Source: Thalassotalea nanhaiensis | GTDB taxonomy: Bacteria > Pseudomonadota > Gammaproteobacteria > Enterobacterales > Alteromonadaceae | DNA: 64,000 nt | NCBI RefSeq assembly: GCF_031583575.1 | Contig: NZ_CP134146.1 | Span: forward strand, 2,852,001-2,916,000 | Direction: 5' to 3' | Shown: positions 1,464-55,495 of the stretch, one piece after another | How the letters are laid out: every line of letters begins with the position of its first letter | Position numbering within the stretch: the stretch's first letter is position 1 | Position numbers and translations under genes: made by a program | The notes under the pieces: model-generated | The model's database searches: none | What the model saw: only the letters and a program-made list of their open reading frames with translations | Told to the model about the DNA's origin: nothing

Positions 1464-2765
1464 CTAAAGCGTGATACGAAACCTTACACTTGCGACAAAC
1501 GCACTGTCATCTTCAGCGTTAGTGTGTGGATCAATAATGTATTGAAAGTTTGGTGTTATTTGTACGGTTTCAGCCAACTGAAAACGGTAAAATGTTTCAA
1601 AGGTGGTGGTATATTCATTAGCGGCAAAACCGACATCGTATAACGGCTCGATGATTTTACCGTGATTTATCGCCATACCAAATAAATCAGAACGATCTTC
1701 AAAATACTTAATAAAACCAATATTTACTTCCTGCTCATACAATTGCACATCATTTGCTGAGTCTGCATCAGAGAAACCTAACTGGCTAAATATCATCCAT
1801 TCCATGTTCCAGGTCCAGTTAAAGCCAAATACTACACCGTACGAGTCAGAGTCTGCCCCCTTTACTTTACGTTCATCGACTTGCCATAAAGTTACATGAA
1901 AGTTTTTAAAATATCGGTCATTTCGTGTTGGTGACCAACCAAATTCAGCATATTTATAAAGCTCGTCAGTGCCCTCTTCAAAAAACTCTAAATCATCAGT
2001 CGCGACACCATTGGCATCATTAACACCACCTAACACATAATAAGAGTCATTTAACCAGCCACCAATACCAACGCCCCAACTCCAGTCTGGCGCTGCAATA
2101 CTCATATTAATCAGGTTATCCAGGTTAGAAAATCCGGTCCAAGGAGATGCGTAGCCTAAAACATTATGATAATCATTCGGGTCATAACGACCAATAACCA
2201 TACCACCATTTCCATCAAATAACGCTTGTGTCCACTTCACATCACCAATGATGTCTTTACTGTCGTTAAATAACATCGCTGTTTGGCTTAAATAACCAAA
2301 ACCACCGCCTAATGACGCGGGAGCTGTATCTCCATAGTCATGCCTGTGATCAAGACTAAATACAAAAGCCCCAGGGTTTTTACCGCCTCGATCGACAAGC
2401 TCCCATTTACCAGTAAACCTTAAAATACCAGAGCCCGCAGTATTGGCATTAATATCTGGCTCAACGACTTCTTGCATCATACTGGTATAAGCAATACCAA
2501 ACTGCAAACCGGTATCTTTGTACAACTGAGATTTCCATGCGCGTAGATCTTCTGTTGCTTGATCTAAAATAGGCATACGAATAAGTGGGTATTTATCTTT
2601 ATTATCTTCTTCTAATTGGGCAGAAGACTCCCCTGGTGCACCATAGCCTTCATCATCGTCATATGGTTTTTCTTTGGTTGACGCATCTTTAGCGTAAACA
2701 CCAGGTGACAATGTTAAAGCCAAAGCCAGAACAATTAAGTTAAATAATATAGAGATGTGTTTCAT
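1464..2765 (-). CDS. OprB-type (carbohydrate-selective family) outer-membrane porin
   Basis: The 433-residue protein starts with a signal peptide ending near residue 25 (cleavage after VYA), followed by a charged, acidic linker. The body has many Trp/Tyr/Gly-rich alternating strands, a HRHDYGD motif near one third of its length and an ASPWTGFSNL motif, matching carbohydrate-porin (OprB) family proteins. The last residue pattern (RFRITL) fits an outer-membrane barrel terminus. A second family member lies at 18188-19402 and shares these motifs (HRHAYTDEAP, ASPWTDFSNL). No sugar-catabolic gene is in view, so passage of another small polar solute is plausible. The start is supported by AAGGGA upstream. 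Weak inverted arms (CTTCCT/AGGAAG) at 2852-2876 lie in the upstream gap. Confidence 0.85.
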   Translation of the reverse strand: MKHISILFNLIVLALALTLSPGVYAKDASTKEKPYDDDEGYGAPGESSAQLEEDNKDKYPLIRMPILDQATEDLRAWKSQLYKDTGLQFGIAYTSMMQEVVEPDINANTAGSGILRFTGKWELVDRGGKNPGAFVFSLDHRHDYGDTAPASLGGGFGYLSQTAMLFNDSKDIIGDVKWTQALFDGNGGMVIGRYDPNDYHNVLGYASPWTGFSNLDNLINMSIAAPDWSWGVGIGGWLNDSYYVLGGVNDANGVATDDLEFFEEGTDELYKYAEFGWSPTRNDRYFKNFHVTLWQVDERKVKGADSDSYGVVFGFNWTWNMEWMIFSQLGFSDADSANDVQLYEQEVNIGFIKYFEDRSDLFGMAINHGKIIEPLYDVGFAANEYTTTFETFYRFQLAETVQITPNFQYIIDPHTNAEDDSAFVASVRFRITL

Positions 2766-2935: not shown

Positions 2936-3967
2936 CTAAATTTGGCTTTTAAGATCTGCTCTAAATTCTCGTGGGGTTTGGCCGCTATGAGCCTTGAAAG
3001 AGCGAGTAAAGTTGCTGTTTTCAGAAAAACAAAGTTTTTCAGCGACTTCAACCAGCTTCAGGTCTAAGTTTGATAAATACTCTTTTGCTAATGTCATGCG
3101 AGCATTTTCAGAAATATCGCGATAGTTCAAACCAAACTGTTTAATTTTTTGACTTAAACTACGGGTACTCATGCCAAGCTCTCTGGCAATGGCCTCTTTT
3201 GAAAATACCCCTTTTTTCATTAATTCTAATATATTGGAATATATACGCGTAGGTAATTCAAAGTACTCAAAGCGCTGTTCGTATTCATCAACTAACTGTT
3301 GGTTTAATCGATAAAGCTGCGGATCATAGCCCACTTGTTCAATGTCTAATTGACCGGTGGTTAGATAAAAGCCGCTGTCTTCACAATCAAACTCAACTTC
3401 AGTGTTAAACACTCGGTTTATTTCTTCTACATACTTTTGCTCTGGTTTTGCAATACTTAAACACACCTTGTGAAAAATAAATTCATTACTGACACTGAAT
3501 TTTAAATGCGCATACATATTGCACACCCAGGCAAGCTGCATTTTAGCTTCATCCAGTTTATGGTGACGAGATCTCGCGCCAACAAACCAACAGTCATCCG
3601 ACTTTTTTAAATACACTTCAGCACCGGTACTAATCATTGAATAGTGCTTGATCAGTAATTCGATATTTTCTCGGACGGTTTCACAGGAGTAACATAACGG
3701 GCCCAATGCATTAAACGTGACTGGGCGGTAGTTATTAACTAGATTTAATACTAAAAAAGGCTTTTTATTATTATTTAACAATAACGCTAAAATAGGAAGA
3801 AATGAGCTACCTTTTACTCGACCACATTGGGCGAGTAGGTCTTGGCTGTCGATAATTTCCATGTACTGTCGTAAAGACTCAACACTTTCTCCAGAGTCTT
3901 CTAACGTTTGAATCAGCATATGTAACAGTGAACGGATCACTGAATGTTGATAGTCGAGTATTTCCAC
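2936..3967 (-). CDS. AraC-family transcriptional regulator with Arabinose_bd-type N-terminus
   Basis: The 343-residue protein has a mixed alpha/beta N-terminal half like the ligand-sensing domain of OruR-type AraC regulators and a C-terminal double helix-turn-helix (about residues 240-335). The second helix-turn-helix is clear: LVEVAEKLCFSENSNFTRSF followed by the conserved GQTPREF turn. The gene starts with GTG, preceded by AAGGAAGG. It is divergent from another AraC-type gene at 4073 and lies directly upstream of the porin gene at 2765. That position suggests control of the porin or the nearby catabolic genes. The effector is unknown. It is a candidate reader of the shared motif at 15309, 18071 and 19491, but nothing in the sequence proves this. 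Confidence 0.88.
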   Translation of the reverse strand: MEILDYQHSVIRSLLHMLIQTLEDSGESVESLRQYMEIIDSQDLLAQCGRVKGSSFLPILALLLNNNKKPFLVLNLVNNYRPVTFNALGPLCYSCETVRENIELLIKHYSMISTGAEVYLKKSDDCWFVGARSRHHKLDEAKMQLAWVCNMYAHLKFSVSNEFIFHKVCLSIAKPEQKYVEEINRVFNTEVEFDCEDSGFYLTTGQLDIEQVGYDPQLYRLNQQLVDEYEQRFEYFELPTRIYSNILELMKKGVFSKEAIARELGMSTRSLSQKIKQFGLNYRDISENARMTLAKEYLSNLDLKLVEVAEKLCFSENSNFTRSFKAHSGQTPREFRADLKSQI

Positions 3968-4072: not shown

Positions 4073-5122
4073 ATGAAACTTGAAGTTGCTGGCCATACAA
4101 AACGTTATCTTTTTATTTTAGAAGCATTTAAAAAGATATATTCTGAACAAGTAAACTTAAACGATGACATTTCTTCTTTGTTAGACAGTTATATACATGC
4201 TGACGATTTAAGTGTTAGTGGCCGCAAATACATCAAAAGCATTATTCAAAAATGGGGGGAAACTAATCTTCAATTTCCGATCCAATTAAATTTTGCCAAA
4301 CCTATTAACCCAGCTTTATTTGGTATTTTTGGTTTAACGGTAAGCTCAGCAACTACGCTGCGCTGCTTTTTTGAATTTTGGGCTGAGTTTTCTCGTATTT
4401 TATTTATTTTTAACACCGCATCATTTGAAGAAACAGATGAATATGGCGTGTTAACTTTTATCCCTGATAAAGACGTAATTGAAGATAATATTCATTATCA
4501 AACGATTCAAGGCGGCATTTCGGCAAGCTTGTCAAATTTACGCACTGTGGCCCATAAGGACTTTAGTCCTGACAAAATTATAGTGCCGGAAGGAATTGAA
4601 AAAAGAACTCAGGAAAAACTTGCCAAGCTTGCTGGTTGTGTTGTAGAAACAACCATAGAGAACAAAGGCCAAATACTGATCAACAAACAACGCTTAACGA
4701 TGCTTTTACCTGCAGGTGATAGTCATTGTAATTTGGCTTATTATCAATTGGCTTCGAAACGACTCATTGAAATAGCTCCAGACAATATGATGTTAAAAGT
4801 TAGGTCTTGGTTTATAGATACCGTATTAAGTAACAACATCGACAATAGCGATATCAGTAAAGATTTAGGTTTGAGTCTAGACTTTATTAATTTGAAGTTA
4901 AATGAACAGAACACAGATCTAAACGCTATTAAAAATAAAGTCTTACCCGTATTAGCAAGACACTTACTACAACAACCAGGAGTGCAAATTAAGCAGATAG
5001 CATTTAAACTTGGCTATACCAGCTCAAGCTCATTTAATAAGGCCTACAATCGTTGGACAGGTAACTCACCAGCAGATTATCGAAAGTCGTATTTAGAGCG
5101 GATTAATAATTTAAAGTTTTAA
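4073..5122 (+). CDS. AraC-family transcriptional regulator, divergent partner
   Basis: This 349-residue protein ends in an AraC-type DNA-binding region: IKQIAFKLGYTSSSSFNKAY followed by the TGNSPADYR turn, near residues 300-340. The first helix-turn-helix (about 262-285) is more degenerate. The N-terminal half resembles the sensing domain of the neighbouring AraC protein in layout, but identity looks low. The two start codons are about 105 bp apart on opposite strands, so they probably share a control region at 3968-4072. The ATG has no strong ribosome binding site. A TATAAT at 4065-4070 sits only 2 nt before the ATG, too close for a normal leader. The gene ends before a good terminator at 5149. 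Family is sure; ligand and targets are unknown. Confidence 0.85.
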   Translation: MKLEVAGHTKRYLFILEAFKKIYSEQVNLNDDISSLLDSYIHADDLSVSGRKYIKSIIQKWGETNLQFPIQLNFAKPINPALFGIFGLTVSSATTLRCFFEFWAEFSRILFIFNTASFEETDEYGVLTFIPDKDVIEDNIHYQTIQGGISASLSNLRTVAHKDFSPDKIIVPEGIEKRTQEKLAKLAGCVVETTIENKGQILINKQRLTMLLPAGDSHCNLAYYQLASKRLIEIAPDNMMLKVRSWFIDTVLSNNIDNSDISKDLGLSLDFINLKLNEQNTDLNAIKNKVLPVLARHLLQQPGVQIKQIAFKLGYTSSSSFNKAYNRWTGNSPADYRKSYLERINNLKF

Positions 5123-8377: not shown

Positions 8378-9553
8378 TTAATATGACTTAGGCAATCCCA
8401 ACACATGTTCACCCAAATAGTTTAATGTCATTTGTTGAGTTACCGGCGCTAAACGGAATAACTGACATTCTCTAAACCAACGCTCTACATGATATTCACG
8501 AGCAAAACCACAACCACCCAGCGTTTGCATGGCATGGTGTGTAGCTTCTAGTGCCGATTCTGCGGCAAGCCATTTCGCCATGTTGGCAACATCGCCCACT
8601 TCTTTATCTGACTTACCTTCATCATATAATGTAGCCGCTTTTAACACTTGCCCCCAGGCAGCCTCTACTTTTGCGTAAGCAGCAGCTAATGGGTGTTGTA
8701 CCGCTTGGTGAGCACCAATTGGTTGACCAAATACATTACGCTCTTTGGCATACTCAATAGCGTGTTCAAGAGCAAGTTTTGCCGTGCCACAGGCGCCAGA
8801 GGCGATTAAAATACGTTCAGGGTTAAGCGTACCTAATAATTGATAAAAACCTTTGCCTTCTTCACCAAGCAAACAATCTTTTGATACACGGACATTATCA
8901 AAGAATACCTGGAACGACTTATAATAATGATAACCGTGCTTATCAATTGGTGTGTAGCTAATGCCTTCTGCTGGCAGGTCTACTAAGAATAATGAAATAC
9001 CGGCAGCTTTATTTTTCACGTCTTCTTTCTTGGTTGTGCGAGCAACAATAAGAACAGCATCGGTATTGTCAATATTGGTAATAAACCATTTACCGCCGTT
9101 AATGATGTAATCGTCACCATCTTTTTTGGCAAATGTTTCAATGTTTAATGAGTTAGTACCTGCATTTGGCTCAGAAAGGGCAAATGCACAGGTTTTCTCG
9201 CCAGCGGCAAATGCTGGTAAGTATTTTTCTTTTTGACTGTCATTAGCATGATGGGCAACAGATAAGTTACCTAGCAAGCCAAACAAATAGCCTAGAGCCG
9301 GTCCGCCACCACCGCCGCCACGACATAATGCTTCCATCGCTAAAGCAACATCGGTTAAACCAGCATCGGCACCGCCCCACTTTTCAGCGAGTGGCAAACC
9401 AAAGAAACCTAGTGAACCGATTTCGTCCATAAATTCTTGTGGATATTGTTTATTTTCATCCATTTCGCGCCAGTATTCTGGGTCATACTTTTTAGCAAGA
9501 TCAGCGGCCATATCGGCGATCATTTGCTGTTCCATGGTTAAATCAAAATTCAT
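8378..9553 (-). CDS. Acyl-CoA dehydrogenase lacking the C-terminal EGT glutamate
   Basis: The 391-residue protein has the usual dehydrogenase layout: N-terminal helical domain, FAD-binding middle part (CAFALSEPNAGTNSL, KWFITN), and C-terminal helical domain with KERNVFGQPIG. The C-terminal motif that normally gives the catalytic base (YEGT-x-E-I-Q) is replaced by RLAPVTQQM, so that glutamate is missing. A glutamate, E246 in TLNPERILIA, sits where isovaleryl-CoA and long-chain dehydrogenases keep theirs, so the enzyme is probably active. A run of six glycines occurs at about residues 79-84. The gene is 23 bp downstream of the next dehydrogenase gene and surely co-transcribed. The pair may form a heteromer or act in series. 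The acyl substrate is unknown. Confidence 0.87.
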   Translation of the reverse strand: MNFDLTMEQQMIADMAADLAKKYDPEYWREMDENKQYPQEFMDEIGSLGFFGLPLAEKWGGADAGLTDVALAMEALCRGGGGGGPALGYLFGLLGNLSVAHHANDSQKEKYLPAFAAGEKTCAFALSEPNAGTNSLNIETFAKKDGDDYIINGGKWFITNIDNTDAVLIVARTTKKEDVKNKAAGISLFLVDLPAEGISYTPIDKHGYHYYKSFQVFFDNVRVSKDCLLGEEGKGFYQLLGTLNPERILIASGACGTAKLALEHAIEYAKERNVFGQPIGAHQAVQHPLAAAYAKVEAAWGQVLKAATLYDEGKSDKEVGDVANMAKWLAAESALEATHHAMQTLGGCGFAREYHVERWFRECQLFRLAPVTQQMTLNYLGEHVLGLPKSY

Positions 9554-9576
9554 AATATTATTCCTATCAACTTAAC

Positions 9577-10728
9577 CTAAAAGGCATTTAAACCAGTGAT
9601 GGCACGGCCAATCATTAGCTTTTGAATTTCGTTAGTTCCTTCAGTGACTCGGAACACTTTTGCTGCACGTGCCATATATTCAACCGGGAATTCGCGCGTA
9701 ACACCATTACCACCATGGATCTTTGTGGCTTCATCAACAACTTCACAGGCTAGGTCAGTACAGAACCATTTCGCCATAGCAGCATCAATATCTGAGCGTT
9801 TCTTCTGATCGATTGAACTTAACGCTTTAAATGCCATAAGTTTACCCGCTTCTATTTGGGTAGCCATGGTTGCTAATTTTTCTTGGACAATTTGTTTTGC
9901 CGCAATTGGCTTGCCAAATTGCACACGATCAAGAGAATACTGTACGGCTTCATCAAACGCTGCTTGCGCAATACCCATGGCCATTAAGCCAACGATTGGA
10001 CGAGACGATTGCAAAAGTGTTAACAACATCTTCATGCCTTGGCCTGGCGCTGCCACCATATTCTCTTTTGGCACACGACAATTATCAAAAAATACTTGTG
10101 CAGTTGATTGGCTGTTTAACGCAGTTTTATCAATGTTAGTAGTTTCATAGCCGTGCTCTTCACGATCAACTAAAAATACTGCAAGACCTGTTTCATCACC
10201 TTCAGTAACGTTTACCAATACATACATAAAGTCTGAGTAATCACCCGATGATATCCACATTTTTTCGCCGTTGATAATAAAGTGATCATCACCGTCTGGT
10301 TTAGCACGACATGTAGCCGAAGAAATATCAGAGCCAGTGCCAGGTTCAGAGATAGCAACCGAAGCAATCAGTTCACAATTAATGAACCCTTCAAGGTATT
10401 TGCTGCGAAGTGGTTCTGGTGTACCTGAAACCATTTTTCCTGAGGCAAAGTAAATTAATGTAGTTATCGCAATGTCTGGAGATACTTTGGCTAATTCATG
10501 CATCATTAAACCAAGGGTAACAGCGTCCATATCAAAGCCGCCAAGCTCTTCTGGTAAGAAACCGTTCACTACGCCAAATGGAGCAAGCTTTGCTTGAATT
10601 TCTTTAGCTAATGGTGTTGGAATATATTTGTCGCGATATTCATCGGCGATAGGCTTTATTTCTGCCTGTAAAAATTTCTTAAAACTATCTACGGCGATAG
10701 TTTGCATTTCGTCTAAAGAAAAATCCAT
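9577..10728 (-). CDS. Acyl-CoA dehydrogenase with canonical C-terminal glutamate
   Basis: The 383-residue protein has all core acyl-CoA dehydrogenase motifs: VAISEPGTGSD, the INGEKMWISSGDYSD flavin-binding strand, VQFGKPIAAKQ, and KIHGGNGVTREFPVE. The catalytic base is predicted to be E363 in VTEGTNEIQK, the position used by short- and medium-chain enzymes. At the alternative position (SSRPIVG) it has no glutamate, the reverse of its neighbour. AGAGG lies just before the ATG. It is first of a two-gene unit with the dehydrogenase at 8378-9553. Upstream are a 56-bp inverted repeat and the amidohydrolase gene. It probably oxidises a branched or cyclic acyl-CoA, which is inference from context only. 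Confidence 0.9.
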   Translation of the reverse strand: MDFSLDEMQTIAVDSFKKFLQAEIKPIADEYRDKYIPTPLAKEIQAKLAPFGVVNGFLPEELGGFDMDAVTLGLMMHELAKVSPDIAITTLIYFASGKMVSGTPEPLRSKYLEGFINCELIASVAISEPGTGSDISSATCRAKPDGDDHFIINGEKMWISSGDYSDFMYVLVNVTEGDETGLAVFLVDREEHGYETTNIDKTALNSQSTAQVFFDNCRVPKENMVAAPGQGMKMLLTLLQSSRPIVGLMAMGIAQAAFDEAVQYSLDRVQFGKPIAAKQIVQEKLATMATQIEAGKLMAFKALSSIDQKKRSDIDAAMAKWFCTDLACEVVDEATKIHGGNGVTREFPVEYMARAAKVFRVTEGTNEIQKLMIGRAITGLNAF

Positions 10729-10816
10729 AGTTGCCTCTAACTTGGGGGGCTGATTATTTTTAGGAATAATTAATCAGGTGTAAATTTATGACCTTGATAA
10801 TACCTCGTTAACATTG

Positions 10817-10872
10817 AATAGGCTTATCAATACGAGCATAGCAATTGCGTGCTATTTATAGATAAGCCTATT
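10817..10872. other. Large inverted repeat (hairpin) between amidohydrolase and dehydrogenase genes
   Basis: The 56-bp element has perfect 12-bp outer arms (AATAGGCTTATC and complement) and a near-perfect inner core around GCAATTGC. It lies downstream of the amidohydrolase gene and about 90 bp before the dehydrogenase start. It has no T run, so it may be a processing or pausing structure or a mobile palindromic repeat rather than a classical terminator. Confidence 0.6.
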
Positions 10873-10896
10873 TTCCCTATTAGCTAAACGATAGCT

Positions 10897-12252
10897 TTAT
10901 AAAGTATTTTTATGAAATTTACCGTCTTTCATAATCACCAGTATAGTCTTAATATCTTCGGTACTTGCATCCCACCAACCTGCGTCGGCGCCCACTAATG
11001 AGATATCTTCTAATGGATTACCATCAATAAGTAAGATGTCGGCTAATGCACCTTCTTCAATAACACCAAGTTTGCCATAAGGATTACGCTTACCAGAGAG
11101 GGCAACAAATTCTGCAGAAACTGAGGTTGCGCGTTTTAGCGTGTCAAAGTTGCCGAATAACTCAGCGCCCCAATAAAGTTCATAGCGGCGTTGTTTGATA
11201 TGACTCGACGGTGGACCAAATGCATCTACGGCAAATGGGATTTTAGGCTGATACTTTTTAATTAACGGTACTAAATTTGCCATGTCCTTTTGTGCATTAA
11301 CAATTTTATCAATGTTCACTTGTTGCAGACCTGGCAATTCAGTTAATCTAGGCGATGTAGCATTAAACTGTGTTGCTAGAAATGCGCCCTTTTCAACCAA
11401 TTTTTTCATGCCTCTTTCTTTGATCATCAAGCCATGTTCTACTCCCATTACGCCAGAATCCAGCGCACGTGAAATGGCAGCATCGGTAAGTAAGTGAGCG
11501 GTTACATAAGTACCCCAATCTTTGGCAGCATTTACTGCAGCCAATTGCTCTTCTGGTTGAAATTGTAATGAATCAAGCGGATCAAAATCAGAGCCTGCAC
11601 CACCGCTTGCCATGATTTTTATTTGCGTAGCACCTTGGCGTAAGTTTTCACGAACCGCACGATAAATTTCAGCTTTACCATCAACCACTTTGCCCATCTT
11701 TAATCGATGCCCTGCATCTACATGGCCGGTACTCGCATGCGGTTCAGCAGGAGTTCTAAAATCGCCATGACCAGAAGTTTGCGATATAAATGCGCCAGAT
11801 GGATAAATGCGCGGCCCTGGAACAAGCCCTTGATCAATAAGCCTTTTTAATGCAAATGTATGGCCACCTGCATCGCGAACAGTAGTAAAGCCATCGTCTA
11901 TAAAAGTCTTTGCGGTTAATGTTGAGCGAATTGCGTTTTCTTCGGGGCTTACATAGCCGTGAATTTTACTTAGGGCAGTCGTTATGGCCAAATGAGCATG
12001 TACATCAATCATGCCTGGCATTAGCGTTTTATTACTGCCATCGATGATCACCGCATCTTGTGCAACAACTATCTTATCTTTGCTTATTTTGGTTATTTCA
12101 TTATCAACTACTAATACGTGATGGTTTTGTTTTAGCTGCTCATTTTTTCCATCAAAAATATTTACGTTTTTAAACAGTACTTGGCTGGCAAAAGCATTGG
12201 TCGTGAAAGCGACAGCTGCTATTGCGAGTGATTTAATTAAGTGGTTTTTCAT
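10897..12252 (-). CDS. Secreted metal-dependent amidohydrolase
   Basis: The 451-residue protein has a signal peptide (cleavage near residue 23, FAS) and the amidohydrolase layout: an N-terminal beta-sandwich, the metal site HAH at residues 85-87 in MPGMIDVHAHLA, a lysine in IKIMASGGAGSDFD that would be carboxylated, then YVTAHLLTD and GVEHGLM histidines and FAVDAFGP near the C-terminal barrel end. It ends with the typical LADILLIDGNPL strand. It resembles imidazolonepropionase-like and Xaa-Pro or arginine carboxypeptidase-like amidohydrolases. It would act in the periplasm. A terminator separates it from the oxygenase operon, but it is on the same strand. It might free an acid or amine from an amide or lactone before import, which is speculative. 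Confidence 0.85.
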   Translation of the reverse strand: MKNHLIKSLAIAAVAFTTNAFASQVLFKNVNIFDGKNEQLKQNHHVLVVDNEITKISKDKIVVAQDAVIIDGSNKTLMPGMIDVHAHLAITTALSKIHGYVSPEENAIRSTLTAKTFIDDGFTTVRDAGGHTFALKRLIDQGLVPGPRIYPSGAFISQTSGHGDFRTPAEPHASTGHVDAGHRLKMGKVVDGKAEIYRAVRENLRQGATQIKIMASGGAGSDFDPLDSLQFQPEEQLAAVNAAKDWGTYVTAHLLTDAAISRALDSGVMGVEHGLMIKERGMKKLVEKGAFLATQFNATSPRLTELPGLQQVNIDKIVNAQKDMANLVPLIKKYQPKIPFAVDAFGPPSSHIKQRRYELYWGAELFGNFDTLKRATSVSAEFVALSGKRNPYGKLGVIEEGALADILLIDGNPLEDISLVGADAGWWDASTEDIKTILVIMKDGKFHKNTL

Positions 12253-12316
12253 TATTATTCTTCTTATTTTGTTGTGTTCTATTAATTAAAAAATAAAATT
12301 ATGCTGCTAAAAGCAG

Positions 12317-12347
12317 AAAAACCTTAGGGCAAAGCACTAAGGTTTTT
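12317..12347 (-). terminator. Terminator of the oxygenase operon
   Basis: An 11-bp stem (AAAAACCTTAG/CTAAGGTTTTT) with a 9-nt loop lies 16 bp after the PaaC-like stop codon. T runs occur on both sides. It limits read-through into the amidohydrolase gene. Confidence 0.82.
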
Positions 12348-12362
12348 TTTACTGCTAATCGA

Positions 12363-13217
12363 TTAATCGTAATCGAATGCGATGGTTTCTGGTTTGTCCC
12401 ATAAATCGATTTCATCTTGAACCGAAATTGATAATGGACGACGTGCTAGAATTGCACCTTCATTAGTTGGTACTACGTACTCCCATAATGCTGCAGGCAT
12501 TTCTGAACCTTCAACACGACGACGGCGATTGTTACGCTCGCTTGGGTTTACGCTATCAACTAGTGCTTCAATTTTTTGCTCAGTAATATCCAGTACTTTA
12601 GCAAGTTTAGCGCTCGCTTCTTTGATAAACATTTCACGAGCATCACTTACTGACTGGCTACGAACACCAGATTCAAGTAAAGGACATTCGCTTGAAGCTT
12701 TATCTGTACCAAACCAAGCAATTGCAGCGCCTAAACGAGCTGGAAGCGCATTAATCGCTTCGTTTTTCTCTTCTTCAGTGAACAGAGTGAACCAACCATC
12801 TGAGTTTAAACGATGAAAGTAACACTCTTTACCAAATGCAGTCATCATTGAAGCAATATCTGCATGGTTGCCATCTTTAAACGTCGCCATTAAGCGCCAT
12901 ACAGCAAGTTCAGCTAGGTACGTTGTTAAAATATAATCACCGTAGCTTTGTGGTGGGTTATCTAACATGTCCATGTTGTGAACATCTACTGCTTTACGAC
13001 CAAATTCAATTTGAAAATCAGGTAAGTTATTTTCTTCTTCTAAATAACGGAAGATTGCACGGGTATGCCCCCATGTATCTTGTGACATAGCACCAAGTGC
13101 GGTTGCATCTTGTAAGTTGCGGCTATTCATCAAGCTTCTTGTGTACCAGTGACCTAGTACCCACTCCGTATCGGCGATACAAAGTAATTCTGCCATTAAG
13201 TTATTATCTATTTTCAT
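12363..13217 (-). CDS. PaaC-like structural subunit of a multicomponent oxygenase
   Basis: The chosen ATG (284 residues) has AAAGG eight bases upstream. The protein has the all-helical PaaA/PaaC fold: the N-terminal helix LCIADTEWVLGHWY, then SQDTWGHTRAIF, then the GKECYFHRLNSDGWF helix near residue 130, matching the PaaC pattern of KEARYHLRFS-type sequence. In phenylacetyl-CoA epoxidase PaaC is the non-catalytic partner that pairs with PaaA. It is last in the five-gene run. The region after residue 215 (SVNPSERNNRRRRVEGSEMP) and the C-terminal tail are unlike the standard PaaC, so this is a diverged relative. It most likely forms the oxygenase core with the PaaA-like protein. Confidence 0.83.
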   Translation of the reverse strand: MKIDNNLMAELLCIADTEWVLGHWYTRSLMNSRNLQDATALGAMSQDTWGHTRAIFRYLEEENNLPDFQIEFGRKAVDVHNMDMLDNPPQSYGDYILTTYLAELAVWRLMATFKDGNHADIASMMTAFGKECYFHRLNSDGWFTLFTEEEKNEAINALPARLGAAIAWFGTDKASSECPLLESGVRSQSVSDAREMFIKEASAKLAKVLDITEQKIEALVDSVNPSERNNRRRRVEGSEMPAALWEYVVPTNEGAILARRPLSISVQDEIDLWDKPETIAFDYD

Positions 13218-13309
13218 TTCTTTCACCTTTCTATCTGCTCTGCTGTTAGCTCTATTTATGCTTTCGCAGAGCCTATATAAATTGTTTATTAGTTATTAAT
13301 GCAACAGCC

Positions 13310-13519
13310 TTATTCAGGCATTTTGTGTTGCCATTTCATCCAACCAAATGTTTGCTTACAACCGTTACACTTAAATAGAATTTCTGACACTGTGCCACCA
13401 AACGGACTGGCAACTTGAGTATCGGTAGACTTACACCATGGACACTCAACAGTTTGATCGTATTCATCTTTAAATACTTTCTGCTCTCTATCAGTTTTAG
13501 GGTTATGTTTATTCGTCAT
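13310..13519 (-). CDS. Zinc-ribbon protein matching the C-terminal domain of PaaD
   Basis: This 69-residue protein has two CxxC knuckles, CPWCKSTDTQVASPFGGTVS and CNGCKQTF, spaced as in a zinc ribbon. The same pattern, with S-x-FG between the knuckles, forms the C-terminal part of PaaD of the phenylacetate pathway. Here it is a free gene whose ATG overlaps the PaaB-like stop codon by one base (TAATG), so it is translationally coupled. The DUF59 half of PaaD is encoded separately at 13797. It is probably a maturation or assembly factor for the oxygenase; its exact action is also unknown in the classical system. Confidence 0.82.
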   Translation of the reverse strand: MTNKHNPKTDREQKVFKDEYDQTVECPWCKSTDTQVASPFGGTVSEILFKCNGCKQTFGWMKWQHKMPE

Positions 13520-13752
13520 TATGCAAAACCGATTGGTGTATCTTCTTTACCAATAATGCCCAAGATGTGATCTTGGCGAACACAGCATAGTTCTACCCAT
13601 GGCTTCTCTGAGTAAGTCATGTACGCTTGCGCTCTAGCTAAATCTTCGTTCAGCGCGTAAATACAACCTAAATGGCTTAATTCTTTGTCTATTTTTTCGC
13701 GACCAAATACTTCGTAAACTTTGGCATCCGCTTTATGATCAAGCTTGCTCAT
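13519..13752 (-). CDS. PaaB-like subunit of a multicomponent oxygenase
   Basis: The 77-residue protein matches PaaB in size and pattern: VYEVFGREKIDKELSHLGCI at the start, an alanine-rich helix with alternating charges, then the strand VELCCVRQDHILGI. PaaB in the classical complex bridges two PaaAC dimers and is needed for activity. AGAGAGAAG before the ATG serves as ribosome binding site. It sits between the two PaaD-like parts, an order (A, D-part, B, ribbon, C) unlike the usual A-B-C-D-E. The strong match in this context supports a complete oxygenase complex. Confidence 0.82.
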   Translation of the reverse strand: MSKLDHKADAKVYEVFGREKIDKELSHLGCIYALNEDLARAQAYMTYSEKPWVELCCVRQDHILGIIGKEDTPIGFA

Positions 13753-13796
13753 ATTTTATATCTTCTCTCTTTTAGCCATTGCTGACTGTAATTCAT

Positions 13797-14132
13797 TTAA
13801 ATAACGTAACCGTGACGGGCTGCTCTTTCGCGAGCTTCCTCGGTGATGTGTGTACGGTCCCATTGATGGCCCCATTCAACTTTCACTTTCACTTTTTCAA
13901 CGCCGTCTAAAGCGCCGACACGTTTTCTAATATCAGCCATCATTAGCTCTAATGCTGGACAGCCTATACAAGGTAAAACCAATCCAACATAAATGCCGTT
14001 ATCAACCGTTGCCTCTACACGCTTGACCATCCCCATATCGAGGATATTCACGCCCATGTGAGGATCAATGACTTCTTTTAACGTGGCATTAATTTGTTGT
14101 AATTGCTCGTTTACCAAAATGATGCACCCCAT
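13797..14132 (-). CDS. DUF59/MIP18-type protein matching the N-terminal domain of PaaD
   Basis: The 111-residue protein has the DUF59 core: VIDPHMGVNILDMGMVKRVE, then VLPCIGCPALELM with the conserved cysteine, then VKVKVEWGHQWDRTHITEEA. The tail (THITEEARERAARHGYVI) matches the segment that in PaaD leads into the zinc ribbon, but the protein stops there. The ribbon is supplied by the gene at 13310. The start overlaps the PaaA-like gene end by 22 bp (ATG) or 7 bp if a TTG at 14117 is used. Proteins of this family act in iron-sulfur or metal-centre assembly. The role here, maturation of the diiron oxygenase, is inferred. Confidence 0.83.
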   Translation of the reverse strand: MGCIILVNEQLQQINATLKEVIDPHMGVNILDMGMVKRVEATVDNGIYVGLVLPCIGCPALELMMADIRKRVGALDGVEKVKVKVEWGHQWDRTHITEEARERAARHGYVI

Positions 14133-15082
14133 TCTTCACGTTGTAGACGCTCATAAATAGCTGGACGCATGCGGCCACCTTTTTTCATGTTGCCAACAAC
14201 ATCAGACCATTCACACTTTTCCCAAATCCAATCGCCAGTTTCACGATCCCAAGTCATTGGGTATGGAAGGTCTAATACGTATTTACCTTCATCTTCATCA
14301 AAGTGCGCAGGTACTTCACAGCCAATTCGCTTAGCTAAGTTACATGCAGACTGTAACCATTTATCACGCATTTCATCGTTTGACCATTTACGTACGCCGT
14401 AAATCAATTGGTCCATTTTGCCTTTCATGGCATCAGGACGGCCGTACCAGAACACACCATGTGGGAATACCCAATCAACAGCTTCTTGCACCATGGCGCG
14501 AGTTTCTTCGTTGTAGTTCCAGTAGAACTCCATCCAGTAAGAACCGTGACGCATGTGGAATGCTTCTTCAAAGTTTACTTTTTTCAATGCACGACGGTAT
14601 GGGGCAAATGAACAGTGTAATTCGATATCCCATGTAGTGTAACGACCAGCTCTGTCTAGGAATGCTTGTGCTACGACAAAGTAAATATAATTTTTAATTT
14701 CAAACTCAAGAACCGGCATTGACCAGAACTTTTCAGGTGGACGCTCAAATGCTTCTTTGTGCATATCTACACCGAAGCGTTCCCACAACATGCCTTGCTG
14801 ATGGGCATGACCAACTTCATCTTGAATAGAGCCAGAAATTGCCATTTTAGCGCCTAAATCAGGAGCATTTACATAACCCGTTTGTGCCCAGGTAAGTACA
14901 GTTACTTCGCCTGCTGCAGCTATCTCTAGGGTATTTTCTAATACTTTACGGTAACGAGGGGTTAACTCGTCAACGTTTTCAATTAATTCACCTGACTTGA
15001 TTCGGTCAAGTAATGCTTGTTCAGCAGGATCATCGGCAACCATTTCTGGTTTAGCCATTGGTCGGATAACTGTTGATTCCAT
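14111..15082 (-). CDS. PaaA-like catalytic diiron subunit of a multicomponent oxygenase
   Basis: The ATG chosen (323 residues) follows GGAGCAACAG, a good ribosome binding site; an in-frame TTG 12 bp earlier overlaps it. The protein has the PaaA/PaaC ferritin-like fold with plausible diiron ligands: E59 in AAAGEVTVL, E89 and H92 in QDEVGHAH, and E173 and H176 in NFEEAFHMRHG. PaaA uses this centre to epoxidise the ring of phenylacetyl-CoA. The C-terminal third (GETGDWIWEKCEWSD type sequence, many Trp) differs from usual PaaA, and overall divergence is clear. It heads an operon A, D-part, B, ribbon, C. No reductase gene (PaaE) is in the window. The likely reaction is oxygenation of a CoA thioester; the substrate is not known. 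Confidence 0.85.
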   Translation of the reverse strand: MESTVIRPMAKPEMVADDPAEQALLDRIKSGELIENVDELTPRYRKVLENTLEIAAAGEVTVLTWAQTGYVNAPDLGAKMAISGSIQDEVGHAHQQGMLWERFGVDMHKEAFERPPEKFWSMPVLEFEIKNYIYFVVAQAFLDRAGRYTTWDIELHCSFAPYRRALKKVNFEEAFHMRHGSYWMEFYWNYNEETRAMVQEAVDWVFPHGVFWYGRPDAMKGKMDQLIYGVRKWSNDEMRDKWLQSACNLAKRIGCEVPAHFDEDEGKYVLDLPYPMTWDRETGDWIWEKCEWSDVVGNMKKGGRMRPAIYERLQREEWGASFW

Positions 15083-15580: not shown

Positions 15581-16612
15581 TTATGCGAATAAGTAGATGC
15601 CCACTAATATTAATACCGCAAATAAAATCGTTTCAGCAGTTATCAACACAACGGGTTTCCAACCTACAGATACTATCTGCTTTAATGACGTTTTCACACC
15701 AATGGCGGCAATAGATACTACCAAACACCAGCTAGACAGCGTTTTTATGACAGATGCCACTTCTACCGGAATAAAGCCAATATTATTTAATAACGCCAGC
15801 ACGAAAAAGCCAATTAAGAATGTTGGAATAAATGTAGATACCCCACCTTCCATCTTGCTGTCTCGTTCTTTAAAGGCAAAGAAGATGATCATTACAATTG
15901 GCAGTAACAGCGCAACTCGTAATAGTTTTATGTAAGTGGCAATATCTCCGGCCTCTGGTGATATTGAATAACCTGCTCCCACAACTTGTGCTACATCATG
16001 AATAGAGCCGCCAATAAATACACCGGCTAAATCATCGGGTAAACCCAAGTAAGAAACAATAAGTGGGTACACCACCATAGCGATGGTGCTTAGGGTCGTA
16101 ACGCCAATAACCGTTAAGGCAAAGAATTTTTCTTCATATTCTTTTTTCGGTAATACCGTAGAAATAGCAGCGGCGGCTGAAACGCCACATACCGCAACAG
16201 AGCCAGCTGACAACACTCCAAATACTTTCGATAATCCAAGTACTCTAGAAAACATAACGCCAAACGCGATCATAATTGCCATGGACACAATGACGATCAT
16301 CGGGGGGGTGATACCTAGCGACACGATATCAGAAAAAGCAATACGTACACCTAATAGAGCAACGGCAAAGCGAAGTACTGCACGGGATGAAAAGTTAACC
16401 CCGGCTTGATGTTTTGGTGACTCATATAAAAAATGTAATGCCAACCCCAGCAATAAAGCAAACAGCATCACTGGTGCATCATAGCGAGTGGCAAGAGCAC
16501 CTGAAGCAATCGCAATGATCACACTGATAGCAACACCGGAGTAATGCGTTTTGCATGTAGTTAAAAAATTGCTGAGCATGCCTGTTGGCTGCGCCTTAGT
16601 TTCGGCTGTCAT
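15581..16612 (-). CDS. YeiH/UPF0324-family putative sulfate or sulfite exporter
   Basis: The 343-residue protein is an integral membrane protein with about 9-10 helices. It has the family's hallmark SAGSVAVCGVSAAAAIS in the middle, then the GGSIHDVAQVVGAGYSIS motif and GVKTSLKQI near the end. UPF0324 members such as YeiH are putative sulfate exporters, and relatives (SuyZ/TauZ type) occur in organosulfonate pathways. AAGGGA precedes the ATG. It is a single gene with its own terminator. In the upstream gap a 6-bp inverted repeat (TACCAA/TTGGTA, 16642-16663) may be an operator. Its presence next to catabolic genes could mean a sulfur-containing substrate, but this is a guess because the genes are not in one operon. 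Confidence 0.87.
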   Translation of the reverse strand: MTAETKAQPTGMLSNFLTTCKTHYSGVAISVIIAIASGALATRYDAPVMLFALLLGLALHFLYESPKHQAGVNFSSRAVLRFAVALLGVRIAFSDIVSLGITPPMIVIVSMAIMIAFGVMFSRVLGLSKVFGVLSAGSVAVCGVSAAAAISTVLPKKEYEEKFFALTVIGVTTLSTIAMVVYPLIVSYLGLPDDLAGVFIGGSIHDVAQVVGAGYSISPEAGDIATYIKLLRVALLLPIVMIIFFAFKERDSKMEGGVSTFIPTFLIGFFVLALLNNIGFIPVEVASVIKTLSSWCLVVSIAAIGVKTSLKQIVSVGWKPVVLITAETILFAVLILVGIYLFA

Positions 16613-16830: not shown

Positions 16831-17979
16831 CTAGCTTAAAAGGTCTCTGGCAATGATAACTTTTTGAATTTCGCTGGTACCTTCATATATTGAAGTAATA
16901 CGAACATCACGAGCCATACGCTCTAATGGGTACTCTTTAATGTAACCAGCGCCACCCATTAATTGCAGTGCGTCATAACAAGCTTTGTTGGCTTTTTCTG
17001 CAGCAAACAGTTTCGCCATAGAAGCTGCTGTACCAAATGCACCACCTTGCTCTTTAATGTGTGCAGCTTGCATAAGTAACAAACGGGCCGCTTCCATATT
17101 GGTATAGTTTTCTGCAAGCATCCATTGTAAACCTTGGAAGTTACTAATTGGTTGATCAAACTGCTTACGCTCTTTGGTGTATTCTTTAGCGTAATCTAGT
17201 GCAGCTAAACCAATACCTAAGGCTAATGAGCCAATACCAATACGACCGCCAGCTAATTCACCAACAGCAACACCAAAACCTTTATTTTCAGTGCCCATTA
17301 ATGCACTTGCCGGTACTCGACAATTATCAAAATGCACTTCGTTAGTAGGAGATGCTTTTTGCCCCATTTTATCTTCACATTTACCAATGGTCATGCCAGG
17401 CGTGCCTGCTTCTACGATAAAGCATGAGATGCCCTTACCTTTTCGAGCTTCACTATCAGTAACGGCCCAAACTACAAATACACCAGCAAATTCACCGCTG
17501 GTAATAAACAGTTTAGAACCATTTAAAATGTAGTCATCACCATCTTTAACTGCTGTGGTTTTCATACCAGCAGGATCAGAGCCAGCACTTGTTTCAGTTA
17601 AACAAAAACCACCAGCTAAGTATTCACCAGAACAAATTTTAGGAAGATATTTTTGCTTTTGCTCTTCGTTACCAACCGCTTGAATAACCTCGGCAACCAT
17701 ATTGGTTACTGAAGTTGTCACGGCAGTTGACGCACACGCTCTGGCAATTTCAGTAATCGCTAAAGAAAAGGCAACAACACCTGCTTCAACGCCGCCATAC
17801 TCGGCTTTAATATTTAATCCCATTAAACCAAGCTCAGCTAACTGGCTGATATTGTTCTTAAAGGATTCTTGGTCGCCTGTTTCATCCAAGTGGGCAGCAT
17901 TAGGCGCTAATTCAGATTCAGCAAATTTCTTTACCATATCCTGAATCATCATTTGTTCTTCAGTTAAAGAGATGTTCAT
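16831..17979 (-). CDS. Acyl-CoA dehydrogenase (short/medium-chain type)
   Basis: The ATG chosen gives 382 residues starting MNISLTEEQ; GGAA lies upstream and earlier in-frame codons are unlikely. The protein has FCLTETSAGSDPAGM, KLFITSGEFAGVF, KERKQFDQPISNFQ and LMGGAGYIKEYPLE motifs, and the catalytic glutamate E366 in IYEGTSEIQ. It ends typically with IARDLL. It is a standard butyryl-CoA-like dehydrogenase and is much closer to textbook enzymes than the pair at 8378-10728. It is transcribed alone. A degenerate copy of the 14-bp motif lies at 18071, so it may belong to the same regulon as the oxygenase. Fatty or branched acyl-CoA is the probable substrate. Confidence 0.92.
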   Translation of the reverse strand: MNISLTEEQMMIQDMVKKFAESELAPNAAHLDETGDQESFKNNISQLAELGLMGLNIKAEYGGVEAGVVAFSLAITEIARACASTAVTTSVTNMVAEVIQAVGNEEQKQKYLPKICSGEYLAGGFCLTETSAGSDPAGMKTTAVKDGDDYILNGSKLFITSGEFAGVFVVWAVTDSEARKGKGISCFIVEAGTPGMTIGKCEDKMGQKASPTNEVHFDNCRVPASALMGTENKGFGVAVGELAGGRIGIGSLALGIGLAALDYAKEYTKERKQFDQPISNFQGLQWMLAENYTNMEAARLLLMQAAHIKEQGGAFGTAASMAKLFAAEKANKACYDALQLMGGAGYIKEYPLERMARDVRITSIYEGTSEIQKVIIARDLLS

Positions 17980-18070
17980 AATAATTCCACATTTATTGTT
18001 TATGACGCAAAGATACACCGATTAGTTAAGATAAACTAGATGCAGATCCTCCTAGCGTATTCATTATAAT

Positions 18071-18187: not shown

Positions 18188-19402
18188 CTATAAAATTATG
18201 CGAGCTCGTAGACCAATTATCACTTGATCTTCTTCATTACTAATAGCGCCATTACGCACGTACTGTACATCAGGGATCAACTGTAAGTAATCGGTTACCG
18301 GTATTTTGTAGTAGACCTGACCAATGTATTGATTTTGATCGGTACCAAACGCTTCTTTATTAACTTTACCCCAGTTGGCAGCAACACCTAACGTGTCACC
18401 CTCTTTAAGTAAACCATAATAACCAGTACCAATAACTAAAGATTGCTCTAGCATTGGCGCGCTACCTTCGGATACACCACCACGAATAAATGGCATCCAT
18501 TTACCCATCATGAAACTTGCTGAAAAGTTAACACCTTCACTATCATCACCAGAGGCATTGTTATCATGACGTGTACCGCCATCTTGATGCCAATAAGTAA
18601 CGTGCACATTATCTAGGTAAATACGACTTTTTCCTGCGCCGGTATAACCAAGTTCAATTGACTTATGATGCTTTTCATCGTTTAAAAACTTATCAACATT
18701 TTCGCTCATCTCGTCCATATCAGACATACCTGACGCGTCTGCTATACCACCAAGTACGTAAACGTTATCAGTGATCATATGCGCAGCTGCCATACCAAAT
18801 GCAGCATCATCTGGTAGTGCCATTGTGCCGCTACCTGTTGAGAACACTAAGTTAGAAAAATCTGTCCATGGAGACGCTTGAGCGTAGGCATCAAGGTAAT
18901 CAGTAATATCCATAAAACCAGCCCAAACTACGGTATTGCCGTCATTAAAGTTTTGACGCCAGTAAAGGTTAGTTACACGAGCACCTTGATCGTTAAATGC
19001 CGCGCCAGACAAGCTCGACATACCGATATTATTAATACCGTACATTTTAGGAGCTTCGTCGGTGTAAGCGTGACGATGTTCAATTTTAAAGTTTAATGAA
19101 CCGTTTTCTGTAGCAGCCCATGACCCCATAAGACGAAAAACGCCTGATGCAGCTGAATCATCAGTACCTTCCATAGTATCACCTGATGTAATACCAAAGG
19201 CGTTATAGTCGGCTGATAAGCTTAAACCATAGTCTTTTTCAAGACGCTCTTTTACCGATATGCGTGGAGCATGTTTGTTATCTTCAATAACATGCTCGGT
19301 AGAGTCTGGTGAACCAACTTTTTGGCCATCTTCTGCAAATGCTAACGGGCTAATTGCTAATGATATTGCTAGTGCAACTGCACTTTTCATTTTTACTGAC
19401 AT
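18188..19402 (-). CDS. OprB-type outer-membrane porin, second copy
   Basis: The start chosen (404 residues, MSVKMKSAV) follows CAGGT seven bases upstream. A signal peptide ends near LAFA (about residue 25). The mature part has barrel-type strands, a HRHAYTDEAP motif and QASPWTDFSNLVF, shared with the porin at 1464-2765, and ends with GLRARIIL. The two are paralogues, though divergent in loops. The leader holds a 35-nt hairpin (19425-19459) and the 14-bp motif at 19491-19504 lies 89 bp upstream, so this porin is probably co-regulated with the oxygenase operon. It would let the substrate or a related solute cross the outer membrane. The family name implies sugars, but no sugar genes are here. 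Confidence 0.85.
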   Translation of the reverse strand: MSVKMKSAVALAISLAISPLAFAEDGQKVGSPDSTEHVIEDNKHAPRISVKERLEKDYGLSLSADYNAFGITSGDTMEGTDDSAASGVFRLMGSWAATENGSLNFKIEHRHAYTDEAPKMYGINNIGMSSLSGAAFNDQGARVTNLYWRQNFNDGNTVVWAGFMDITDYLDAYAQASPWTDFSNLVFSTGSGTMALPDDAAFGMAAAHMITDNVYVLGGIADASGMSDMDEMSENVDKFLNDEKHHKSIELGYTGAGKSRIYLDNVHVTYWHQDGGTRHDNNASGDDSEGVNFSASFMMGKWMPFIRGGVSEGSAPMLEQSLVIGTGYYGLLKEGDTLGVAANWGKVNKEAFGTDQNQYIGQVYYKIPVTDYLQLIPDVQYVRNGAISNEEDQVIIGLRARIIL

Positions 19403-19424
19403 AAATATTACCTGCATATAATGA

Positions 19425-19459
19425 CGCAATGCTCTTTTAATAAGAGTTTGCTAATTGCG
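19425..19459 (-). promoter_or_regulatory. Stem-loop in the leader of the second porin gene
   Basis: Outer arms CGCAAT/ATTGCG enclose a perfect inner hairpin (CTCTT/AAGAG, 19432-19446). The structure ends 23 bp before the start codon, next to the ribosome binding site, and might tune translation or be an sRNA target. Confidence 0.45.
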
Positions 19460-19504: not shown

Positions 19505-19849
19505 AGGGATATTCACTGAAAACAATATGTTACATGGCAGTACAGATTCACCTAACTTATTGCAAATAATGTAGTAATAAGTAGCCAAAAAACAGTGTTG
19601 ATTGCTAGCACCTCTAACTTGTAATCAAAAAATCCCCCTGAGAGTCAAGTAACTTGCTTAAATTGAACGGTAGAAAAACATAAATAAAATCAGAATCATT
19701 TATATTTTAACGATAATACATAGACTTACAGCTACGTTGAGATAAAATTCGATTTAACTATTATTCACAAACTTCATAAGTCGTATTTTATATAATCGCG
19801 TGAGTTGAGTTTTATTGCCGGGCTATGCCCTACCTATTGTGAGGTTGTT

Positions 19850-36417: not shown

Positions 36418-36498
36418 CTTTAAGACCTCTCTTTTTAGAACTGCCCGTAGGCAATTCAAATTTAAATTTATTAACGTTAATTACTTTGAAGCTCATAC

Positions 36499-55455: not shown

Positions 55456-55495
55456 AAATCTTTCCAATTCTTACTTTTAGTAAAAAATTTTTTCG

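Follow-up and report, generated by a model that had tools for sequence, protein, structure and literature searches.

A PaaA-like diiron oxygenase without an adjacent PaaE in Thalassotalea nanhaiensis and a ferredoxin that accompanies it

The 64,000-nucleotide stretch of the Thalassotalea nanhaiensis genome analyzed here (contig NZ_CP134146.1, positions 2,852,001 to 2,916,000; the window) carries a five-gene block, at 12363-15082 on the minus strand, that encodes a PaaA/PaaC-type diiron oxygenase. The block had been described in an earlier note made from the sequence alone, and we confirm that it is real: it is kept in 5 of the 15 genomes of the genus, this one included, and is therefore not a chance arrangement. 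That note had suggested oxygenation of an acyl-coenzyme A (acyl-CoA) other than phenylacetyl-CoA, with a reductase supplied from elsewhere, an interpretation that our sequence comparisons partly support. On balance, we lean toward a ferredoxin-driven acyl-CoA oxygenase whose thioester substrate would derive from a 2-oxo acid and would not be, or not mainly be, phenylacetyl-CoA.

A complete set of oxygenase subunits

From 15082 down to 12363, the subunit order is A-D1-B-D2-C, all as open reading frames on one strand, followed downstream by an amidohydrolase gene and then two acyl-CoA dehydrogenase (ACAD) genes. A overlaps D1, and the start of D2 overlaps the stop of B (Table 1). Both A and C match PF05138 (PaaA_PaaC) above its cut-off of 28.5 bits. 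D1 begins with TTG, with an alternative ATG start at 14132, and was found in all five congeneric clusters. B, for which the Pfam scan gave no match, is 74-100% identical across the four other congeneric clusters. The full complement of A, B, C, and split D that the earlier note had recognized is borne out by these reading frames and by their Pfam and TIGR matches.

All six PaaA iron-ligand positions named in the available part of PMC4498308 are present in A (E59, E89, H92, D143, E173, and H176), in agreement with the ligands reported earlier. The full set recurs in 90 of the 91 rows of the tree described below, the exception being locus L031, with Gln at the E155 position. An AlphaFold model of A (mean predicted local distance difference test score 89.2; 28 aligned sequences from the window and clade loci) best matched PaaA crystal chains, with template modeling (TM) scores by query length of 0.77-0.80 at 19-20% identity.

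We consider it very improbable that the complex is a diiron enzyme resembling a desaturase or dehydrogenase, or that its activity has been lost. Such a reading would suit the absence of the lysine bridge close to the diiron site and of any known product, but the six ligand positions are kept in 23/23 rows of the genus and its marine relatives, and A is 89-100% identical among congeners while the porins (51-95%) and a neighboring subtilisin (51-66%) are more variable.

Identity with the benzoyl-CoA epoxidase BoxB was rejected. The NCBIfam hits of A comprised TIGR02156 and TIGR02158 alone, with no BoxB model, and BoxB structures ranked 22 to 31 among the fold matches, below PaaA and PaaC chains. 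BoxB resembles the window's system in being a diiron epoxidase of a CoA thioester whose reductase does not co-purify, according to the part of PMC4498308 available, but it is a single larger subunit and only a distant fold match to A (TM 0.48-0.55).

Separation from phenylacetyl-CoA epoxidase

Every subunit scored below the NCBIfam cut-off for its phenylacetate counterpart: 93.1 bits for A against TIGR02156 (PaaA; cut-off 280), 22.3 for B against TIGR02157 (PaaB; far under 85.45), 29.2 for C against TIGR02158 (PaaC; 133.35), and 59 and 39 for D1 and D2 against the PaaD model (108). PaaA proteins of three gammaproteobacteria, used as controls, scored 515-534 bits and all passed. All seven scanned members of the window's wider clade fell between 77 and 140 bits, namely those of Thermus (110), a haloarchaeon (140), Agrobacterium (115), Bradyrhizobium (124), Mycobacterium (90), HTCC2080 (77), and Thermogemmatispora (112).

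Phylogenetic analysis of 91 sequences placed window A on a 56-row side, opposite 35 PaaA rows, and the separating branch had support of 100/100. The midpoint root serves drawing only, and the inner order is unsure since long branches meet; three of the PaaA rows were scored with TIGR02156 and the others were called PaaA by their place in the tree. Homologues of A at E 1e-5 occurred in 23/369 genomes of the class and 21/395 of the family, and all matches outside the window's genus had 20-29% identity.

Residue positions were mapped onto the tree rows through an alignment. The lysine-bridge residues (E49 and K68 of Escherichia coli PaaA) are present in 35/35 PaaA rows and in 0/56 rows of the window's clade. 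Phe108, which orients the phenylacetyl group, is kept in 34/35 PaaA rows and in 19/19 thermophile and haloarchaeal rows, and is replaced by Leu in 5/5 rows of the genus and by Met in 18/18 marine relatives. Window A has A66, S85, and L125 at the E49, K68, and F108 positions. The replacement of Phe108 in the window's branch speaks against phenylacetyl itself as the substrate. Given the TIGR02156 scores, the 100/100 branch, and the missing lysine bridge and Phe108, we rejected the view that A is a divergent PaaA.

We searched for PaaK, PaaZ, PaaG, and PaaE in the T. nanhaiensis genome (G000) and its four oxygenase-bearing congeners (G525, G576, G590, and G418). None of PaaK, PaaZ, and PaaG exceeded its cut-off in these five genomes, and many weaker family-level matches were found; the cut-offs are strict, PaaG passing in 0/14 control genomes. 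A second, standard paa operon in the genome was rejected, as the only two PF05138 matches are A and C. At the sequence level, these searches and the phylogeny support the earlier proposal of a PaaABCD-like oxygenase that stands apart from PaaA and lacks the phenylacetate genes. The outcome named in the note as refuting it, a PaaA-like protein inside the true PaaA clade with a standard operon elsewhere in the genome, was not observed.

Probable electron donor of the oxygenase

To compare redox partners, we sampled 85 loci of the wider clade (the best 80 of 290 genome matches plus 5 of 197 plasmid records; in 71 of them the sequence flanking A covers 4 kb or more in each direction) and 20 of 39 PaaA loci as controls. 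Full-length PaaE adjoins the oxygenase in 20/20 control loci and in 0/85 clade loci, six of which contain partial matches of 64-111 residues. None was found in the nine stretches of the genus island (0/9). In 24/25 haloarchaeal loci (23/23 genome loci and a Haloterrigena plasmid, but not L031), A is preceded at a distance of no more than 2 kb by a [2Fe-2S] ferredoxin, which is divergent from A in 23. A different [2Fe-2S] ferredoxin directly follows C in 3/18 marine loci (L071, L072, and L073).

A relative of this marine ferredoxin is encoded by a small gene at G000:C1:2820930-2821241, approximately 45 kb left of A and outside the window. It occupies the left island end beside gltX (named by eye) in four of the five congeners; in G418 it sits outside the island, next to what by eye are ATP synthase genes. 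An orthologue (62-100% identity) is present in 5/5 oxygenase-positive and 0/10 negative genomes of the genus (Fisher p = 0.0003, or 0.0008 without the two negatives that are incomplete assemblies, at 78% and 87%). The positives do not group as one clade in a gltX phylogeny covering 14 of the 15 genomes, where at least three changes are counted. This co-occurrence is the best sequence evidence on the redox partner, yet it reflects few independent events. The ferredoxin that accompanies the oxygenase in the genomes compared is the likeliest electron donor, and the suggestion that the reductase is supplied from elsewhere agrees with these comparisons at the sequence level.

The claim that PaaE, PaaG, PaaZ, and PaaK are missing held for the oxygenase's surroundings and, over cut-off, for the five genomes, but it needs one correction. 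No PaaE exceeded the cut-off in the five genomes, but an orphan full-length homologue lies at G000:C1:346430-347497 (L159:8389-9516), scoring 386.5 bits against TIGR02160 (cut-off 420.8). Its neighbors, by eye, are polyamine- and amino-acid-oxidation genes. Its 55-56% identity with the PaaE proteins of two paa loci in the same family gives it the look of either a relic or a shared reductase. The idea that it survived the loss of a phenylacetate operon and now serves the new oxygenase as its reductase would accord with its length, score, and identity, but we find this improbable. It is intact in two of the five positives, G590 having a copy of 73% identity, whereas the 97-residue match in G576 contains a stop and no match at E 1e-20 was found in G525 or G418. 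Moreover, A is without the lysine bridge that accompanies all 35 PaaA, of which the 20 inspected have PaaE.

A conserved island around the oxygenase

The oxygenase belongs to a larger island that reaches approximately 30 kb left of the window (G000:C1:2802000-2853500 inspected). Families were scanned on the G000 copies, and the other congeners were compared by BLAST. All five congeneric islands contain a fused homologue of indolepyruvate:ferredoxin oxidoreductase (IOR; approximately 1160 residues, NF009589 1541 bits in G000), two MaoC-like proteins, a flavin mononucleotide-dependent 2-hydroxyacid dehydrogenase homologue, a metallo-beta-lactamase-fold protein, an unassigned membrane protein, and a weakly recognized YjgF/RidA-like protein below the Pfam cut-off. 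A bisC-family molybdoenzyme left of the window (L177:13190-15544; 926.7 bits, just under the cut-off of 1017.55) is likewise present in 5/5 congeners and lies near the oxygenase in 11/18 marine relatives, and a family III CoA-transferase was seen in four of the five islands. Farther left, G000, G590, and G418 carry a PRK09061-type amidohydrolase, which we take to be D-aminoacylase-like, and a D-amino acid dehydrogenase homologue; an M19 dipeptidase occurs in these three and in G576, where the intervening stretch was covered in part. All three genes are absent from the stretches of G525 inspected.

IOR makes arylacetyl-CoA from arylpyruvates. If the island homologue did so, PaaK would therefore not be needed, and the enzyme could after all be an epoxidase of phenylacetyl-CoA (or of hydroxyphenyl- or indolyl-acetyl-CoA), with MaoC and crotonase-fold proteins replacing PaaG and PaaZ. 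The conserved IOR homologue, the two MaoC-like proteins, and the D-amino acid dehydrogenase homologue would suit such a route, as would the Phe108 retained by haloarchaeal members of the wide clade, which are in part close to NCBIfam names. We nevertheless judge it unlikely, in view of the Leu and Met replacements of Phe108 in the genus and its marine relatives, the lack of PaaG, PaaZ, and PaaK above their strict cut-offs, and the large phylogenetic distance to PaaA.

In the 18 marine relatives (56-65% identity in A), genes by the oxygenase include MaoC1 (17), an AraC homologue of regulator 1 (15), thiolase (12), a ChsH2-like OB protein (10), a major facilitator superfamily (MFS) transporter (8), 2-hydroxyacid dehydrogenase (7), ACAD2 (4), and ACAD1 (3). 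Judged by these neighborhoods, the core that travels with the window's branch is the oxygenase with MaoC and AraC. How the thioester is made and used appears to vary within the branch, through a ligase, a CoA-transferase or, in this genus, IOR.

Genes around the oxygenase in the window

Conservation of the neighborhood, proposed earlier as a check, is evident in the retention of the block in the genus and of the island in all five positives (Table 1). The ACAD pair and the nearby porins reported earlier were recovered throughout, the porins being two in number and OprB-like. ACAD1 has the usual Glu in its C-terminal motif. Aligned ACAD2 copies read RLAPVTQQM there, with no Glu; a Glu is present in the NPER motif, presumably the place of the catalytic base in isovaleryl- and long-chain-type enzymes, and we dropped the idea that ACAD2 is a dead partner of ACAD1 on account of it. 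The ACADs show weak similarity to 3-sulfinopropanoyl-CoA desulfinase.

The secreted amidohydrolase named in the earlier note is present, with a probable signal peptide, but it is not constant, and its standing as a fixed part of the cluster is weakened. A second amidohydrolase, 44-45% identical to it, lies beyond gltX in G000, G525, and G576 (L212:14373-15767, L216:979-2313, and L215:17782-18999); the match in G590 is cut off by the stretch edge, and G418 was outside that comparison. With this homologue a few kb past the island edge in three genomes, a link to the pathway may remain.

Among transporters, the YeiH-family protein scores 135.1 bits against TIGR00698 (under the cut-off of 232.6), and the MFS transporter matches TIGR00893 and TIGR00894 below cut-off. 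A 278-residue outer-membrane protein of the window recurs in 4/5 congeners, and enoyl-CoA hydratase and LysR genes in 2/5. A YeiH/PF03601 homologue (31-34% identity) also lies within approximately 4 kb before the oxygenase in six Bradyrhizobium loci (L078-L082 and L084), a placement that resembles the window's in clusters that are otherwise different.

The window also contains very large protease genes at 19805-23689, 29923-36459, 50980-55467, and 55529-61276, which are S8 subtilases at 29923 and 55529 by Pfam and at 19805 by eye, and M36 at 50980. TonB-type receptors accompany the large proteases at 36499-39618 and 47851-50955.

Table 1. Features of the oxygenase locus, with positions counted from the first letter of the window
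Feature	Position	Strand	Evidence and conservation
MFS transporter, probable organic-anion importer	102..1376	+	PF07690 214 bits; 4/5 congeners
OprB-like porin 1	1464..2765	-	PF04966 40.6 bits; 5/5 congeners
AraC-family regulator 1, Arabinose_bd type	2936..3967	-	PF12833 and PF12625; 5/5 congeners
AraC-family regulator 2	4073..5122	+	PF12833; 5/5 congeners
ACAD2, acyl-CoA dehydrogenase without the usual C-terminal Glu	8378..9553	-	PF00441 125.2 bits; 5/5 congeners
ACAD1, acyl-CoA dehydrogenase, usual Glu in C-terminal TEGT motif	9577..10728	-	PF00441 158.8 bits; 5/5 congeners
Amidohydrolase, probable signal peptide by eye	10897..12252	-	PF01979 101.4 bits
C, PaaC-like structural subunit, 287 residues	12363..13226	-	PF05138 57.6 bits
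D2, C-terminal half of split PaaD, zinc ribbon (Zn_ribbon_PaaD)	13310..13519	-	PF23451 63.1 bits
B, PaaB-like bridging subunit, 77 residues	13519..13752	-	Weak TIGR02157 match, 22.3 bits
D1, N-terminal half of split PaaD, FeS_assembly_P type	13797..14117	-	PF01883 61.7 bits
A, PaaA-like catalytic diiron subunit, 323 residues	14111..15082	-	PF05138 115.9 bits; six iron-ligand positions; PaaA fold match
YeiH/PF03601-family membrane transporter	15581..16612	-	PF03601 228.3 bits; 5/5 congeners
ACAD3, third acyl-CoA dehydrogenase of the conserved block, YEGT motif	16831..18018	-	5/5 congeners
OprB-like porin 2	18188..19429	-	PF04966 59.8 bits; 5/5 congeners

Relation to known systems

The window's system shares with the E. 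coli phenylacetyl-CoA epoxidase PaaABCE and PaaD the A, B, C, and D subunits, the ferritin-like fold, the six iron-ligand positions, and an operon arrangement. Unlike the E. coli system, it has no PaaE, its PaaD is split into two genes within the order A-D1-B-D2-C, its A subunit lacks the lysine bridge and has Phe108 replaced, all equivalog cut-offs are unmet, and the genome is without over-cut-off PaaK, PaaG, and PaaZ.

The haloarchaeal and Thermus-type "PaaABCD" belongs to the same wide clade (35-39% identity in A) and also has a split D, no PaaE, and no lysine bridge; another likeness is the [2Fe-2S] ferredoxin beside 24/25 haloarchaeal loci. The haloarchaeal NCBIfam models paad_haloarch and paae_haloarch match the two PaaD halves of the window, but below cut-off (61.9 of 180 and 35.1 of 100 bits). 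This type differs in keeping Phe108; its neighbors include enoyl-CoA hydratases, a CoA ligase or aldehyde dehydrogenase, and branched-chain-amino-acid-type ABC importers, whereas the window's branch has AraC, ACADs, MaoC, and the molybdoenzyme instead.

The split D and the missing PaaE highlighted in the earlier note are thus real at the locus but not unique to it, as they are common to the wide clade, including haloarchaea and Thermus, as far as examined. Since these features are shared so widely and haloarchaeal NCBIfam models exist, this kind of system is already known. Our literature search, which left most subscription journals outside, found no account of the window's branch, its island, or the ferredoxin link, and none of the clade as a non-phenylacetate oxygenase.

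As a side observation, an oxygenase cluster with 37-38% identity is found on the Agrobacterium plasmids L027 and L028, both typed as conjugative, where trb conjugation genes lie only a few kb off. No relative of the oxygenase was found among the viral contigs searched.

Proposed mechanism and points against it

In the ferredoxin-driven reading that we favor, A, B, and C would assemble as a PaaABC-like complex, with A providing the diiron site and carrying out the oxygenation of the acyl-CoA, and D1 and D2 would be the two halves of the maturation factor PaaD. The free [2Fe-2S] ferredoxin would deliver electrons in place of the flavin/[2Fe-2S] reductase PaaE, and would in turn receive them from a shared ferredoxin reductase or from the island's IOR homologue. 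The acyl-CoA would probably be made by IOR from a 2-oxo acid, with a D-amino acid or 2-hydroxy acid as its source, or else through CoA transfer. After oxygenation, the thioester would pass to the MaoC-like hydratases and the ACADs.

The amidase, D-amino acid dehydrogenase, and hydroxyacid dehydrogenase homologues would fit a supply of 2-oxo acids. A parallel is offered by the IOR-family protein EdcC of estrogen degradation, whose gene shares an aerobic catabolic cluster with ACAD and MaoC genes and which has been proposed to turn a 2-oxo acid into an acyl-CoA (PMC7793797). It differs in that the available part of that source names no PaaA-like oxygenase, and we noticed no ring-cleaving dioxygenase in the window's island. 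The acyl group may possibly be aromatic, as IOR can yield arylacetyl-CoA. An organosulfur substrate (from the YeiH family, the bisC-family enzyme, and the resemblance of the ACADs to the desulfinase) and a side chain like that of sterols or isoprenoids (from the thiolase in 12/18 and the ChsH2-like OB protein in 10/18 marine relatives) were considered without result.

Several points weigh against this proposal, which is built on sequence and predicted structure. The orphan PaaE homologue, intact in two of the five oxygenase-bearing congeners, counts against a plain lack of reductase, and the 85 loci sampled are not the whole clade. The ferredoxin, 45 kb from A and beside gltX, could be the partner of a different enzyme. 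A relative at 38% identity occurs in one negative genome, and four of the positives (G000, G525, G576, and G590) have a further relative at 33-36% identity. With most of the island common to the positives, its other genes would also co-occur with the oxygenase, and only G418 separates the ferredoxin from the island; the gltX tree is that of a single gene next to the island. The amidohydrolase adjoins the oxygenase in 2/5 congeneric clusters and lies near it in 6/18 marine relatives. Finally, the 18 marine relatives showed no IOR within 10 kb of the oxygenase, and the 2-oxo-acid step is therefore not constant across the clade.

Implications

A broader picture is possible, though less likely than not: PaaA-like oxygenases may comprise two lines, one with a lysine bridge and a dedicated PaaE and the other, found in both Bacteria and Archaea, driven by free [2Fe-2S] ferredoxin and having lost or always lacked bridge and reductase. 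In this picture the window's marine branch would act on an undescribed acyl-CoA derived from a 2-oxo acid, and the ferredoxin might be reduced by the island's 2-oxoacid:ferredoxin oxidoreductase, which would then both make the thioester and power its oxygenation. The suggested function of the lysine bridge is electron transfer (PMC4498308, available part), and the joint absence of bridge and PaaE offers a direct test of that role. For E. coli PaaA, a structure of the E49Q K68Q mutant is available (4ii4).

The use of PaaA and PaaC as markers for phenylacetate degradation in genomes has been proposed (PMC13186573, available part). Because the window's branch carries both PaaA/PaaC domains without the phenylacetate pathway, calls based on these markers would misassign it. 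In marine gammaproteobacteria, Halieaceae/Luminiphilus among them, the island is the mark of a catabolic route not yet assigned.

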